Shown here: one piece after another, positions 1,718 through 5,904 of the stretch
Position numbering within the stretch: the stretch's first letter is position 1
How the letters are laid out: each line of letters starts with the position of its first letter
Origin: Candidatus Melainabacteria bacterium
Lineage (GTDB): Bacteria; Cyanobacteriota; Vampirovibrionia; Obscuribacterales; Obscuribacteraceae
Direction: 5' to 3'
NCBI GenBank assembly: GCA_016212515.1
Contig: JACRFZ010000092.1
Location: 62,001-126,000 of the forward strand
DNA: 64,000 nucleotides
The notes under the pieces: model-generated
What the model was told of the DNA's origin: nothing
What the model saw: only the letters and a program-made list of their open reading frames with translations
Databases searched by the model: none
Made by a program: the position numbers and the translations under genes

Positions 1718-3130
1718 TCAGTTCCCGCCCCCTCTTGCGGGGAACAAGCCCTGAATAAGGCGCTGCCAGACGGAACCTCGAGATAAATGCCGCCGGGCTT
1801 GCTTGACTGCTTGCGGCGCCAACTTATAGCCGTCCAGGCCGGCGAATTCCTCACTTTGCCCTTGCAGAAAAACGAGAAAGTGCATGGCATCGGTGTATGG
1901 ACCAGTCGCAGAGGGCGAAGGCGACTCCTGGTAAAAACGCCTTAAGGCCTTATCCAGTAGTTCTTCCTGGGAGAAAATTTCAAGCAGGAAGGGGCAGGCA
2001 CGCTTCATAGTGCGCAGCCGCTTGCGAATCAGCGACTGCCTGGCCTGGTCCAATAGCTTGCCGTCGAAGCCGGACAGTTCAGGGGGCAGGCAGGGGACCA
2101 CACCTTCCGCCGCCCCTTGCGGCTCTCGCAACAAGGCACTGAGAAGAGCCCTGTGACCGGCTTCAATTGTTTCGATAGTCTGGGCAGACCGACAGCCGCC
2201 CGCACTTGTCTCTAACGTTTCAGCAAGAAGTGCGGGCGCTCGCACAGGAAGGGGACAGGTCGGCGGTCTGACTATGGGTGGCGGCATCACATCAGCCTGC
2301 CCGCGGCAAGCCGCTTCGATGGCCACCAGTTCGGCAGCCAGTTCATCATCTTCGGCAAAATTATCGTCTCGCTCGAGCATCACGCGCCTGAGAGGCAGAT
2401 TGGCGCCGCGACAAAGCCCAGCCAGAAGGGATAGCAGTTTGAGCGACTCTTCCCGCAATGGATGACAGTGAGTGTCGTGATAGAGCCCCTGCTTGAAGGC
2501 CCCGCCGGCTAAGTGTACATACTCCAGGCGCTCCAGAGGCAACTGACTGAGAAAGCTACCAGCGTCAAAGTGGTGGTTGAAAGAATTGGCGAAGAGATTA
2601 GACACATCCAGAAGCAGCTTGCTATCAGTCTCTTCAAGAATGCGCCGCAGAAATTGGGCCTCGTCCATTTGGTTGTGCTCGGCCGGCCAATCAAATGTGG
2701 TGGCAATGTTTTCCAGCACCATTGGCACACTCAGCCCGGCGCGCGCCTCGGCCAGATTACGCTTGAGCAGTTCAACCATGGTTTGACTGCGCTGTACGGG
2801 CAGAAGATGCCCACTCTCCAGACCACCGGCCCGCACCAGGGCGATGTGATCGCTGACAAAGGGAGCATCGAAGTAGCGGGCCAGTTCATCGAGATGCTTG
2901 AGCAGTTGCCGAGAAGGCAAAGTAGTGGAACCAAGAGATAAGGACGTGGAGTGGGGGATGATCTCGATACCACGCCTGTGCAAGCGCTTGAGAGCATCGG
3001 GAATTTGACCGGGTGAGGGAAAATCTTCCGCCAGAATCTCCACGAAAGAAATACCCTGATGGCGCTCTATAAACCAGGCAAGCTCGGCACGAAAGCCGAG
3101 CCCCAGGAGAGTTCTGCTGGACTCGCTCAT
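1718..3130 (-). CDS. MNIO-family (DUF692) iron enzyme with extra C-terminal domain
   Basis: Residues 1-280 match the MbnB/TglH/ChrH family (Pfam DUF692; multinuclear non-heme iron oxidative enzymes that modify cysteines in ribosomal peptides). The metal-ligand motifs appear in order: IIPHST, VSDHIAL, MVLENIAT, LLLDVSNLFANSFNHHFD, YVHLAGG, THCHP and MLERDDNF. Residues of about 310-470 form a second helical domain with RKRLRTMKRACPFLLEI, which may be a fused MbnC/TglI-like partner (inference). The frame extends upstream to 3163, but ATG 3130 is one base after the stop of the Cys-tail gene (TGATATG), so translational coupling favours it and gives 470 residues. Its likely substrate is the Gly/Cys tail of the upstream protein: MNIO enzymes are usually encoded next to their substrate. 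The reaction here is unknown. Confidence 0.88.
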   Translation of the reverse strand: MSESSRTLLGLGFRAELAWFIERHQGISFVEILAEDFPSPGQIPDALKRLHRRGIEIIPHSTSLSLGSTTLPSRQLLKHLDELARYFDAPFVSDHIALVRAGGLESGHLLPVQRSQTMVELLKRNLAEARAGLSVPMVLENIATTFDWPAEHNQMDEAQFLRRILEETDSKLLLDVSNLFANSFNHHFDAGSFLSQLPLERLEYVHLAGGAFKQGLYHDTHCHPLREESLKLLSLLAGLCRGANLPLRRVMLERDDNFAEDDELAAELVAIEAACRGQADVMPPPIVRPPTCPLPVRAPALLAETLETSAGGCRSAQTIETIEAGHRALLSALLREPQGAAEGVVPCLPPELSGFDGKLLDQARQSLIRKRLRTMKRACPFLLEIFSQEELLDKALRRFYQESPSPSATGPYTDAMHFLVFLQGQSEEFAGLDGYKLAPQAVKQARRHLSRGSVWQRLIQGLFPARGGGN

Positions 3131-3131
3131 A

Positions 3132-4055
3132 TCAGCCACCGCAGCCGCCGCAACCACCGCCACAACCGCCGCCGCCGCAGCCGCCGCCGCCGCAACCGCT
3201 GCCGCCGCCGCAACCTCCGGAGGAGGCGGGCTTAAGAAGAGCCTGGGAGGCTTGAGAGTACGGGTCTGTGGCGAGAGCTATGGTGCCGAAGAGAGCATAG
3301 GCAAAGGCGGTGTCGGCCAGGCTCAATTTGCCGGCGCCTGTGGCGAAGGTCAGCTTCAAGGCCGAGCCGGTATCATTCATGGCGGCAATTACAGCATCTC
3401 CCCTGGCAGTGGTTTCAGCCTTCGGCGTCAGGAAGAACAAAGATAAAAGGAAGCCCACCAGAAATTCTATGGTTAAGAAGGCCACGGGCTTACCTAAACT
3501 GGACCCGATCACAATTTTGGGCAGGGCCATGACGGTCAAAGTGGTGACGACGATTAAAAAGGGCAGCAATCTGCATAGAGCCGCCTCATCGTTGTTGGGT
3601 ATGAGCCCCTTCTGGCGCAAGCTGGACTCAATTACACTCACCTGGGCGGAAAGAGTGGTTTTGAGAGTATCCACAGAGATTGCGCCGCCCTTCACCCGTT
3701 GCATGATCACTGCTTCTACCGGATGAAGGTGAGAGGGAATACTGAGATTGCTCACCCCTTCAGGCAACCCGACAGTGCGCGCCTTAGTGTCGATGGAGAT
3801 CAAGTTGTGCCTGGCCAGTGTGGCGCAGGCAGTTAAGAACACTCGCTCGGAACCGCCTCGCAGATTGGCGGCTTCGTAAGGCGTCAATTGCCGGGCGAGA
3901 GACTCAGCTTCATTTCTGGTGATAACTGCATCGGCTGCCAGTTTTCCCAGAACTTTCTGCTTCACCGCCCAACCCACAAGGGCGGCACTGCAACCGGTCA
4001 TGGCGTAAAACACTACATAAGGAGGACCATACCATTCAAAAGGATTTATACTCAT
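3132..4055 (-). CDS. TIGR04222-type membrane protein with six-Cys glycine tail
   Basis: 307 residues. Membrane segments are seen at about 13-32 (VVFYAMTGCSAALVGWAV), 165-185 (FLIVVTTLTVMALPKIVIG) and 190-207 (FLTIEFLVGFLLSLFFL). Between them lies a soluble stretch starting with acidic/basic helices (ITRNEAESLARQLTPYEAA). The C-terminus (about 278-307) is almost only glycine with six cysteines spaced by 2-5 residues. This layout fits the uncharacterised TIGR04222 family, known for Gly/Cys-rich tails. The stop is one base from the MNIO gene, so the tail is the obvious candidate substrate. The start ATG at 4055 follows a purine-rich tract (A/G run at 4056-4110 on this strand) that can serve as ribosome-binding site. 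No signal peptide is seen. Function unknown; membrane metal binding or redox sensing through modified cysteines is only a guess. Confidence 0.82.
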   Translation of the reverse strand: MSINPFEWYGPPYVVFYAMTGCSAALVGWAVKQKVLGKLAADAVITRNEAESLARQLTPYEAANLRGGSERVFLTACATLARHNLISIDTKARTVGLPEGVSNLSIPSHLHPVEAVIMQRVKGGAISVDTLKTTLSAQVSVIESSLRQKGLIPNNDEAALCRLLPFLIVVTTLTVMALPKIVIGSSLGKPVAFLTIEFLVGFLLSLFFLTPKAETTARGDAVIAAMNDTGSALKLTFATGAGKLSLADTAFAYALFGTIALATDPYSQASQALLKPASSGGCGGGSGCGGGGCGGGGCGGGCGGCGG

Positions 4056-4242: not shown

Positions 4243-5904
4243 TCACTTAGCGGAGATGATGGTTTCCACCGGCGGAATGTCCGGCACCCAGAACTGCCTG
4301 CCGTCGCTTACCACCGGGGTCAAACCAAGATCCGGCAACTCCTTCTCGCTGCGCCCCAAATAAATAAAATGGGGAGTATCGTGCAGAACGGTTTGATAGA
4401 AGCCATGTCGATTGAGAATGGCTCTTACCTTCGGATTTTTATGCTCTTCCACATCCAGAGCCAGACCGGAAATATGCTGGGACCCTCCCGGCGGCGCCGC
4501 CAGATTGAGAAGAGAGTGCATGCGATTGGCGTGCAGATAATAACCTTTCTGCTCGAGAGCCAATACTGTATTTAGCTGCTTGCGAGGCGGGCTGGCAAGA
4601 ATGGCGGCCGCCTCAGCGGCGGTCATTTTCTTGCGACCGACCCAATAGCCCAGACCCTTCTCCAGGTACTTGCGCCAGATCCTCTCGGTATCCTCGTACG
4701 TGCGAAGGCTGGCTATGTCGCCCACCGGGCTAATCTTGAGATGCAATTGCTCGGCATCTTTGCGAGCCGCCATGAGCGCCTCCAGAGCATCCTTTTGCAG
4801 AGTAACTCGATAGGCTCCCATTCTCGCTTGCTTGAGCGGTAGACTCTTTTGGTAGGCCCGCACCTGGGCAGGTTTATCAAACAAGGCTTGCTCAGGCAAT
4901 TTCAGACCCGGTCTGGCCACAAAGGTAGCACCGTAGTTGCGCATCACGACAGCATACAAAGCATCCTGTCCGGCCGGCAGACCACCGCGAGCGCTGGCCA
5001 GGCGGGCGAAACGTGAACCGGCTACGGTGTTCAGCCCCTGGGGCACAAGGGAGGGACCCACGAGGGCAGCGGCACTGTTCCTGTCGCTTTCATGGTTGGT
5101 GGGAGCCGGCGCTCCGTCCATAGAACTGGCAGGCGCCTGGGAAGGATAGAGCGGTAAGTTCTGAGCGGCACGACCGGACGTACCGCCGACCATTCCGGCA
5201 GAGCCCTGTGCAGAACCTTGCGCAGAACTTTCCGCGCTAACTGCTGTTCCTGCGGAAGCACTGGGGGCGCCTTCCGGCAGGGAAGCAGGTCCAAATTTCA
5301 AACCCGGATGCAAGATACCGCCTGGCGCCATGCTCAAACGCACAGGTGCACCGGGAGCAGCGGCCGATTCCGGGCTAACTTCGCTCTCCTCATCAGTCTT
5401 GACGCCGCCCGGAGCGGCAGGGGCGGTCAAAGTTGGACTGCCGAGATCCACAGGCAATAACGGCTGTGGCGCCAGGCCGCTCCCCTCATCCGCAAGGGCC
5501 TGTGCAGACGGGTCCGTCGCTGAGACAGGCGAAACCTTTGCCCCATTCAGTCCGGCATCCGACGGCCGGTCGGCAGCAGGCGAATTAGCATCAACCGGGG
5601 CCGGGCGAGCATGGTTGTCAACCAACTGATTATTGCGGTAGTAGCGCCCACTGGTGGGCACATGACCGGCAGCACCGGGGTCATCCCGGGAGGTGGATTC
5701 AGCCATGGTATGGCGGTTCTGAGGCAAGGGTCTACCGATAAACTGACAAAAGGCCACCACCCCAGCAAATGCACACATTGAGGCTATTAAAATTGTCAGT
5801 TCCGGATGCGCCTTACCGCTCTGGTTTATCAAATTGCGACCCCCACCACAGTTTAACCGCAGCAAGGCTATCGAGCAAATAGCAAAAGGTCCTATAAACA
5901 CCAC
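4243..5904 (-). CDS. Membrane-anchored M15/VanY-like D,D-peptidase
   Basis: About 530-553 residues. An N-terminal membrane anchor (LTILIASMCAFAGVVAFCQFI) is followed by about 220 residues of Pro/Ala/Gly/Ser-rich low-complexity linker and a C-terminal catalytic region. The zinc signature of the M15 family is present as SQHISGLALD (pattern SxHxxGxAxD), with a later TPHFIYLG supplying the third histidine. M15 enzymes (VanY, DacA-type) trim D-Ala or L-Ala-D-Glu links in peptidoglycan, so a cell-wall role in the periplasm is likely. The canonical ExWH is not obvious before the last His, so activity is not certain. The frame starts at GTG 5904; a TTG at 5832 behind GGGGGTC is an equally good start and leaves a single anchor. 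It lies alone, 31 bases from the trypsin-fold gene upstream. Confidence 0.75.
   Translation of the reverse strand: MVFIGPFAICSIALLRLNCGGGRNLINQSGKAHPELTILIASMCAFAGVVAFCQFIGRPLPQNRHTMAESTSRDDPGAAGHVPTSGRYYRNNQLVDNHARPAPVDANSPAADRPSDAGLNGAKVSPVSATDPSAQALADEGSGLAPQPLLPVDLGSPTLTAPAAPGGVKTDEESEVSPESAAAPGAPVRLSMAPGGILHPGLKFGPASLPEGAPSASAGTAVSAESSAQGSAQGSAGMVGGTSGRAAQNLPLYPSQAPASSMDGAPAPTNHESDRNSAAALVGPSLVPQGLNTVAGSRFARLASARGGLPAGQDALYAVVMRNYGATFVARPGLKLPEQALFDKPAQVRAYQKSLPLKQARMGAYRVTLQKDALEALMAARKDAEQLHLKISPVGDIASLRTYEDTERIWRKYLEKGLGYWVGRKKMTAAEAAAILASPPRKQLNTVLALEQKGYYLHANRMHSLLNLAAPPGGSQHISGLALDVEEHKNPKVRAILNRHGFYQTVLHDTPHFIYLGRSEKELPDLGLTPVVSDGRQFWVPDIPPVETIISAK

Follow-up and report, generated by a model that had tools for sequence, protein, structure and literature searches.

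A candidate membrane-protein substrate with a Cys-Gly tail encoded beside an MNIO enzyme bearing a putative fused partner domain in Obscuribacterales

A compact locus in the genome of an uncultured relative of the cyanobacteria, from the order Obscuribacterales, encodes, side by side, a TIGR04222 membrane protein ending in a Cys-Gly tail and an MNIO enzyme whose C-terminal extension is, judging by homology, a fused partner domain. Both genes lie in the 64,000-nucleotide stretch of DNA analyzed here, hereafter the window. We consider it somewhat probable that they form a membrane-anchored system related to those that make MNIO-modified RiPPs, in which the TIGR04222 protein is the substrate and its tail cysteines are oxidized, yielding a metal-binding product on the cytoplasmic face of the membrane.

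The core idea, the pairing of TIGR04222 proteins with MNIOs, is already known from Antoine et al. (2025; PMC12452194), who described such pairs together with their Cys/Gly tails and DUF2063-like partners of PME-type 2. We add to this the assignment of the extra domain, the strictness with which the triad is kept in Obscuribacterales, its reach into photosynthetic cyanobacteria, the relationship to DUF2207 proteins, a revised topology, and counter-examples that carry the tail without any MNIO. The initial annotation of the locus, made from the sequence alone, was right in its observation and plausible in its interpretation.

The locus, the enzyme and its C-terminal domain

Table 1. Features of the two-gene locus (window coordinates; residues are those of the respective protein)
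Feature	Position	Strand	Basis
TIGR04222 membrane protein gene, candidate substrate, 307 aa	3132..4055	minus	TIGR04222 match and AlphaFold model
Transmembrane helix 1, residues 11-35, predicted N-terminus outside	3951..4025	minus	hydropathy, model helix
Winged-helix-like domain, residues 47-96, predicted cytoplasmic	3768..3917	minus	model secondary structure, DUF2207_C homology
Transmembrane helix 2, residues 155-186	3498..3593	minus	hydropathy, model
Transmembrane helix 3, residues 192-209	3429..3482	minus	hydropathy, model
Gly/Cys C-terminal tail, residues 278-307, ends GGGCGGCGG	3135..3224	minus	sequence
MNIO-partner fusion gene (partner by homology), 470 aa from ATG 3130	1718..3130	minus	PF05114 match and AlphaFold model
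MNIO TIM-barrel domain, residues 9-276	2303..3106	minus	invariant residues, Foldseek
Disordered linker, residues 280-313	2192..2293	minus	pLDDT < 50
Putative fused partner domain, residues 314-462, DUF2063-like (fits PME-type 2), without RRE domain	1745..2191	minus	homology to separate gene in relatives

The two genes are separated by a single base, as had been noticed from the sequence: in the junction TGATATG, the TGA of the tail gene (3134-3132) is followed by one base and then by the ATG of the MNIO gene (3130-3128). The listed open reading frame of the MNIO begins at GTG 3163 and overlaps the tail gene; ATG 3130 better matches the start of the family. Profile searches established both of the family identities that had been proposed, with scores over the respective cut-offs: the 307-aa protein matches NCBIfam TIGR04222 (E 3.6e-27, 95.5 bits, cut-off 43), and the 470-aa protein matches PF05114 (MbnB_TglH_ChrH, formerly DUF692; E 3.7e-63, 213.7 bits, cut-off 25). 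The MNIO lies under the BufB and HvfB equivalog cut-offs (151.3 of 310 and 135.9 of 360 bits, respectively). The genome (6.1 Mb, 124 contigs) contains five PF05114 matches and only one TIGR04222 gene. Its nearest named relatives are Candidatus Obscuribacter phosphatis and further Obscuribacterales/Melainabacteria MAGs.

Two further genes flank the pair on the minus strand. The downstream one, some 70 bases from the end of the MNIO gene, codes for a TolC-type outer-membrane protein (143-1645), weakly closest to the divalent-metal exporter subunit IhpA (92 bits, far under the cut-off of 650). The upstream one (4243-5904), kept beside the pair within the genus only, codes for a VanY-like D,D-carboxypeptidase whose N-terminal region is long and of low complexity.

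The AlphaFold model of the fusion (pLDDT 83.9, pTM 0.81) has the MNIO fold, its top Foldseek matches being TglH (8hci/8hi7), 3bww and MbnB (7dz9/7fc0), with only 19-24% identity to TglH and MbnB in the fold alignments. Nine putative iron-site residues (H60, H95, E140, D175, N178, H206, D219, H221 and E253) are invariant in the 17 sequences of the subfamily, and the expected ligand set is thus complete in the alignment. Apart from N178, D219 and H221, we take these residues to be iron ligands, as in the MbnB and TglH structures. The three exceptions were matched to the HvfB site-3 ligands N175, D242 and H244, a correspondence that rests on the 3bww alignment for N178 and on the D-x-H motif for D219 and H221. 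In HvfB, alanine variants at these three positions still bind iron, but their activity is abolished (PMC13419390).

The C-terminal extension had been estimated at about 160 residues and suggested to stand in for the usual partner protein. The region is about 190 residues long; AlphaFold models residues 280-313 as a disordered linker and residues 315-462 as a helical domain. The suggested role is supported by DUF2063 homology and by the existence of a separate gene in sister lineages. When a profile of the partner was aligned with the DUF2063 domains found at the order's other MNIO loci, hhalign gave a probability of 82.6% (P about 1e-5), against at most 0.3% with 20 column-shuffled profiles. 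Pfam DUF2063 gives weak matches in five of 15 partner members (best E 0.0078), and the domain of the window itself has no Pfam match. A PDB profile search with the partner domain found neither 3dee nor TglI; it returned malate synthase at E about 1, which was treated as chance. These comparisons suggest a remote homology. The DUF2063-like helical part is present alone, with no RRE domain, and the domain appears to fit what Antoine et al. (2025; PMC12452194) class as PME-type 2.

Of 17 loci (see below), 11 encode the partner separately and five carry it fused to the MNIO C-terminus (the window, L065, L071, L070 and L073); none was found at L075. The separate gene is small (88-177 aa) and follows the MNIO gene, usually with a short overlap. 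At L072, on a short contig, the partner frame has just 88 aa and appears internally deleted. A spurious read-through of the MNIO stop was excluded as the source of the extension, since the domain is ordered and has its counterpart in relatives as a gene of its own, which usually overlaps the MNIO gene. Two fusion or fission events are required on the best tree, although a single origin of the fusion (one change) may also account for the pattern. In other genera of the order, open frames of about 610-770 aa (L083, L086, L089 and L092) contain an MNIO together with a classical DUF2063 domain; natural fusion of enzyme and partner therefore seems to be recurrent in Obscuribacterales.

The membrane protein, its tail and its orientation

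Three hydrophobic peaks and three long helices in the AlphaFold model (pLDDT 84.1) bear out the three-span architecture originally read from the sequence. In the model, the winged-helix-like domain between the first two spans is built of three helices and two short strands. The fourth hydrophobic segment (246-262), a weak one, is a short helix of 11 residues there. A PDB fold search with the model gave no match under E 0.001, and PDB sequence matches of the TIGR04222 profile were discarded as their positions fall on Gly-linkers.

The protein ends in SGGCGGGSGCGGGGCGGGGCGGGCGGCGG, whose six cysteines, counted correctly in the initial annotation (282, 288, 293, 298, 302 and 305), all stand in a Cys-Gly context. 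The bodies of 16 relatives share 27-46% identity with that of the window protein, and their tails carry five to seven cysteines; the tail end GGGC-GG-CGG is nearly invariant, the end being conserved in 17 of 17 sequences. The tails mix both codons for Cys and three or four for Gly, so selection acts on the amino acids. A chance low-complexity run or nucleotide slippage is excluded by the same mixed codons and by the conservation of the end beside bodies that are about 30% identical. The initial proposal of a three-span membrane protein whose C-terminus is the candidate substrate is supported.

We find a cytoplasmic location of the tail probable, because of homology to DUF2207_C, an extra transmembrane segment in extended relatives, the charge distribution, and the shortness of the fourth hydrophobic segment. 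Pfam DUF2207_C matches 14 of 26 TIGR04222 members (best 5.3e-8), and the TIGR04222 body aligns with DUF2207_C from TM1 to TM3 (hhalign 80%, P 1.3e-5; shuffled controls at most 0.3%). TIGR04222 and DUF2207 (YciQ-like) proteins thus appear to share TM1, the winged-helix-like region, TM2-TM3 and a Gly-rich C-terminus. DUF2207 proteins differ in having a signal peptide and an exported domain, and their tails were seen without Cys. Since the signal peptide and exported domain precede TM1, TM1 is predicted to run from outside to inside. TIGR04222 relatives that have a large N-terminal domain and no signal peptide carry an additional hydrophobic segment before TM1, which would restore the same orientation. 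Membrane-adjacent K+R counts sum to 6.65 on the proposed inner side versus 2.38 outside, and the 246-262 segment, modeled as only 11 helical residues, is likely too short to span the membrane. Conversely, about two positive charges also lie in the TM2-TM3 loop, and some relatives (L107) have a quite hydrophobic 246-262 segment; this segment could place the tail outside, as proposed by Antoine et al. (2025; PMC12452194).

Their prediction of periplasmic tails, derived from AlphaFold models, would make the product a membrane-anchored periplasmic metal buffer, a fixed analogue of the bufferins. The IhpA-related TolC-type gene adjoining the window pair, and a cation-efflux gene found two genes downstream at two loci of the same genus, agree with such a function. 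These efflux neighbors are not conserved between loci, however, the homology, extra segment and charge counts given above favor the cytoplasm, and since MNIOs act in the cytoplasm, modification would have to precede insertion, with the tail crossing the membrane only afterwards. We therefore regard such a periplasmic buffer as unlikely. A conserved metal-efflux neighborhood was likewise unsupported, the TolC gene having been seen at the window locus alone.

Distribution of the pair and of the tail

TIGR04222 scores over its cut-off in 17 of 53 Obscuribacterales genomes, and the same 17 hold the MNIO subfamily of the window (members score at least 216 bits, the next best 145). Each of these genomes has the two genes adjacent and on a single strand, so that the pairing put forward in the initial annotation is conserved. 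In three genera (g5, g15 and g22), some species have both genes and others neither. The coincidence is specific to this subfamily, because MNIOs of any kind occur in 48 of the 53 genomes, and the arrangement is far beyond chance in the order. Beyond the triad of TIGR04222 protein, MNIO and partner, gene families in the neighborhood are shared by no more than a few related genomes at a time, and no alternative candidate substrate recurs at the 17 loci.

A PAS histidine kinase and a response regulator occur near the pair in the window genome (L076, 7442-9259 and 6695-7375, minus strand) and adjoin it at three loci of another genus (L067, L068 and L069). Together with the modeled winged-helix-like cytoplasmic domain, these genes could speak for an MNIO that matures a sensory membrane protein, such as a sensor feeding a two-component system, in place of a metal-binding product. 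With the kinase at just four of the 17 loci, where it is 31-35% identical to that of the window genome and may be there by coincidence, and with no known sensing mechanism, we find this highly improbable.

In a phylum-wide sample, TIGR04222 matches occur in 22 of 386 genomes and fall mainly into two kinds, distinguished by length and MNIO adjacency. Outside the order, proteins of about 310-370 aa are followed by an MNIO gene, and the Obscuribacterales partner profile matches the gene after the MNIO in eight loci (E 1e-8 to 3e-4); according to these matches, the triad is also present in photosynthetic cyanobacteria. Those of about 450-550 aa lack an MNIO gene beside them, yet Cys-Gly tails are present in most. 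Their genomes mostly have no PF05114 match at all, and near-identical tails are found in such PF05114-less genomes (G060, G063, G364, G203 and others), including complete ones, e.g., G063 (one contig) and G364. The MNIO-less proteins mostly have another architecture, being longer with an extra N-terminal domain; those of L110, L112, L115, L107 and L111, which are cyanobacterial, carry this domain (LYQRLQAFSLDD...FSKRLARENNW) and have Cys-Gly tails very similar to the MNIO-linked ones.

These genomes provide the strongest caution of this study: a Cys-Gly tail alone is no proof of modification by an MNIO. Because near-identical tails occur in the absence of PF05114, the tail can act without an MNIO or has an unrelated role. 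It could accordingly be an unmodified metal- or redox-active Cys-Gly tail on which the fusion enzyme acts only in some lineages, or the enzyme could act elsewhere. One third of TIGR04222-bearing genomes lack an MNIO in the data of Antoine et al. (2025; PMC12452194), and the DUF2207 relatives have Gly-rich, Cys-less tails, which suggests that the superfamily has long possessed a Gly tail and that this tail serves an independent role. Against this, the pair is never apart in the 17 Obscuribacterales genomes, where no other candidate substrate recurs, and most MNIO-less proteins are of the different architecture just described. An unmodified tail thus seems to us doubtful for the window locus.

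Proposed mechanism and relation to known systems

Our preferred reading remains that the TIGR04222 protein is modified by the adjacent MNIO. Its three helices and cytoplasmic winged-helix-like domain would hold a flexible tail, whose cysteines would thread into the MNIO active site and be oxidized there by a mixed-valent di-iron center and O2. The DUF2063-like domain would support the active iron state and position the substrate, and, with no RRE domain available, the enzyme may recognize the cytoplasmic part of the membrane protein itself. A tail on the cytoplasmic face would be reachable in the already inserted protein. The tail cysteines would most likely be oxidized into metal-binding groups, themselves most likely of the thiooxazole or a related type that binds soft metals such as copper, and the product would be a fixed array of such groups at the inner membrane face. 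A soft-metal-binding array is our best guess because the products of oxazolin and bufferin MNIOs are copper-binding 5-thiooxazoles (PMC13419390, PMC12452194).

The oxazolin and bufferin systems (HvfABC, Buf1, Buf2, Buf_EGKCG) resemble the window locus in combining an MNIO with a DUF2063-type partner acting on repeated cysteines, with a probable metal-related product. They differ in their precursors, which are small and carry a Sec signal peptide, whereas the 307-aa three-span protein appears to have none, and in their partners, which contain an RRE domain (PME-type 1, DUF2063 + RRE). HvfC is required for the active mixed-valent iron state of HvfB, and an engineered HvfB-HvfC fusion is highly active and mimics the complex (PMC13419390), which makes it a close laboratory parallel to the natural fusion in the window. 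TglHI and MbnBC share the fold and iron-site residues of the window MNIO and need a partner; in contrast to the window locus, their substrates are short peptides and their partners are of other architecture.

Two other MNIO loci were observed in the window genome. One (L001, G000:C107, plus strand) is a classical bufferin/oxazolin-type cluster. Its genes, at 486-866, 1058-1426, about 1400-2328 and 2216-3121, encode two small precursors with Cys repeats (SSCGEGSCG; repeated KGKEGSCKGK), one MNIO and one partner of the DUF2063 type. At the other (L003, G000:C36, plus strand), an MNIO gene (1456-2340) is directly followed by a 274-aa gene (2341-3165) that resembles a DUF2063-type partner and is absent from the DUF2063 search matches; no precursor was identified at this locus.

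The closest relatives are the pairs published by Antoine et al. (2025; PMC12452194), who report that, of the Cys-containing proteins that lack a signal peptide and are encoded immediately ahead of MNIO genes, about 40% are TIGR04222 proteins. There too, a Cys/Gly-tailed membrane protein adjoins an MNIO, and some loci have PME-type 2 partners. The window locus departs from them in the apparent fusion of the partner to the MNIO, in the strict pairing seen in its order, and in evidence that favors a cytoplasmic over a periplasmic tail. In a term search of that article, neither a natural MNIO-PME fusion nor any reference to cyanobacteria came up.

The locus is a compact two-gene system, with enzyme and putative partner in a single chain, the candidate substrate adjacent, and a short conserved tail end, a layout that makes the modification of integral membrane proteins by MNIOs directly testable. 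The predicted topology also shifts where the product should be sought. As a more specific and tentative possibility, the single-chain enzyme may modify the cytoplasmic tail in place, producing a membrane-fixed array of thiooxazole-type or other new cysteine-derived groups. If so, an MNIO would here generate, without an RRE domain, a product that stays in the cell and is not a peptide.
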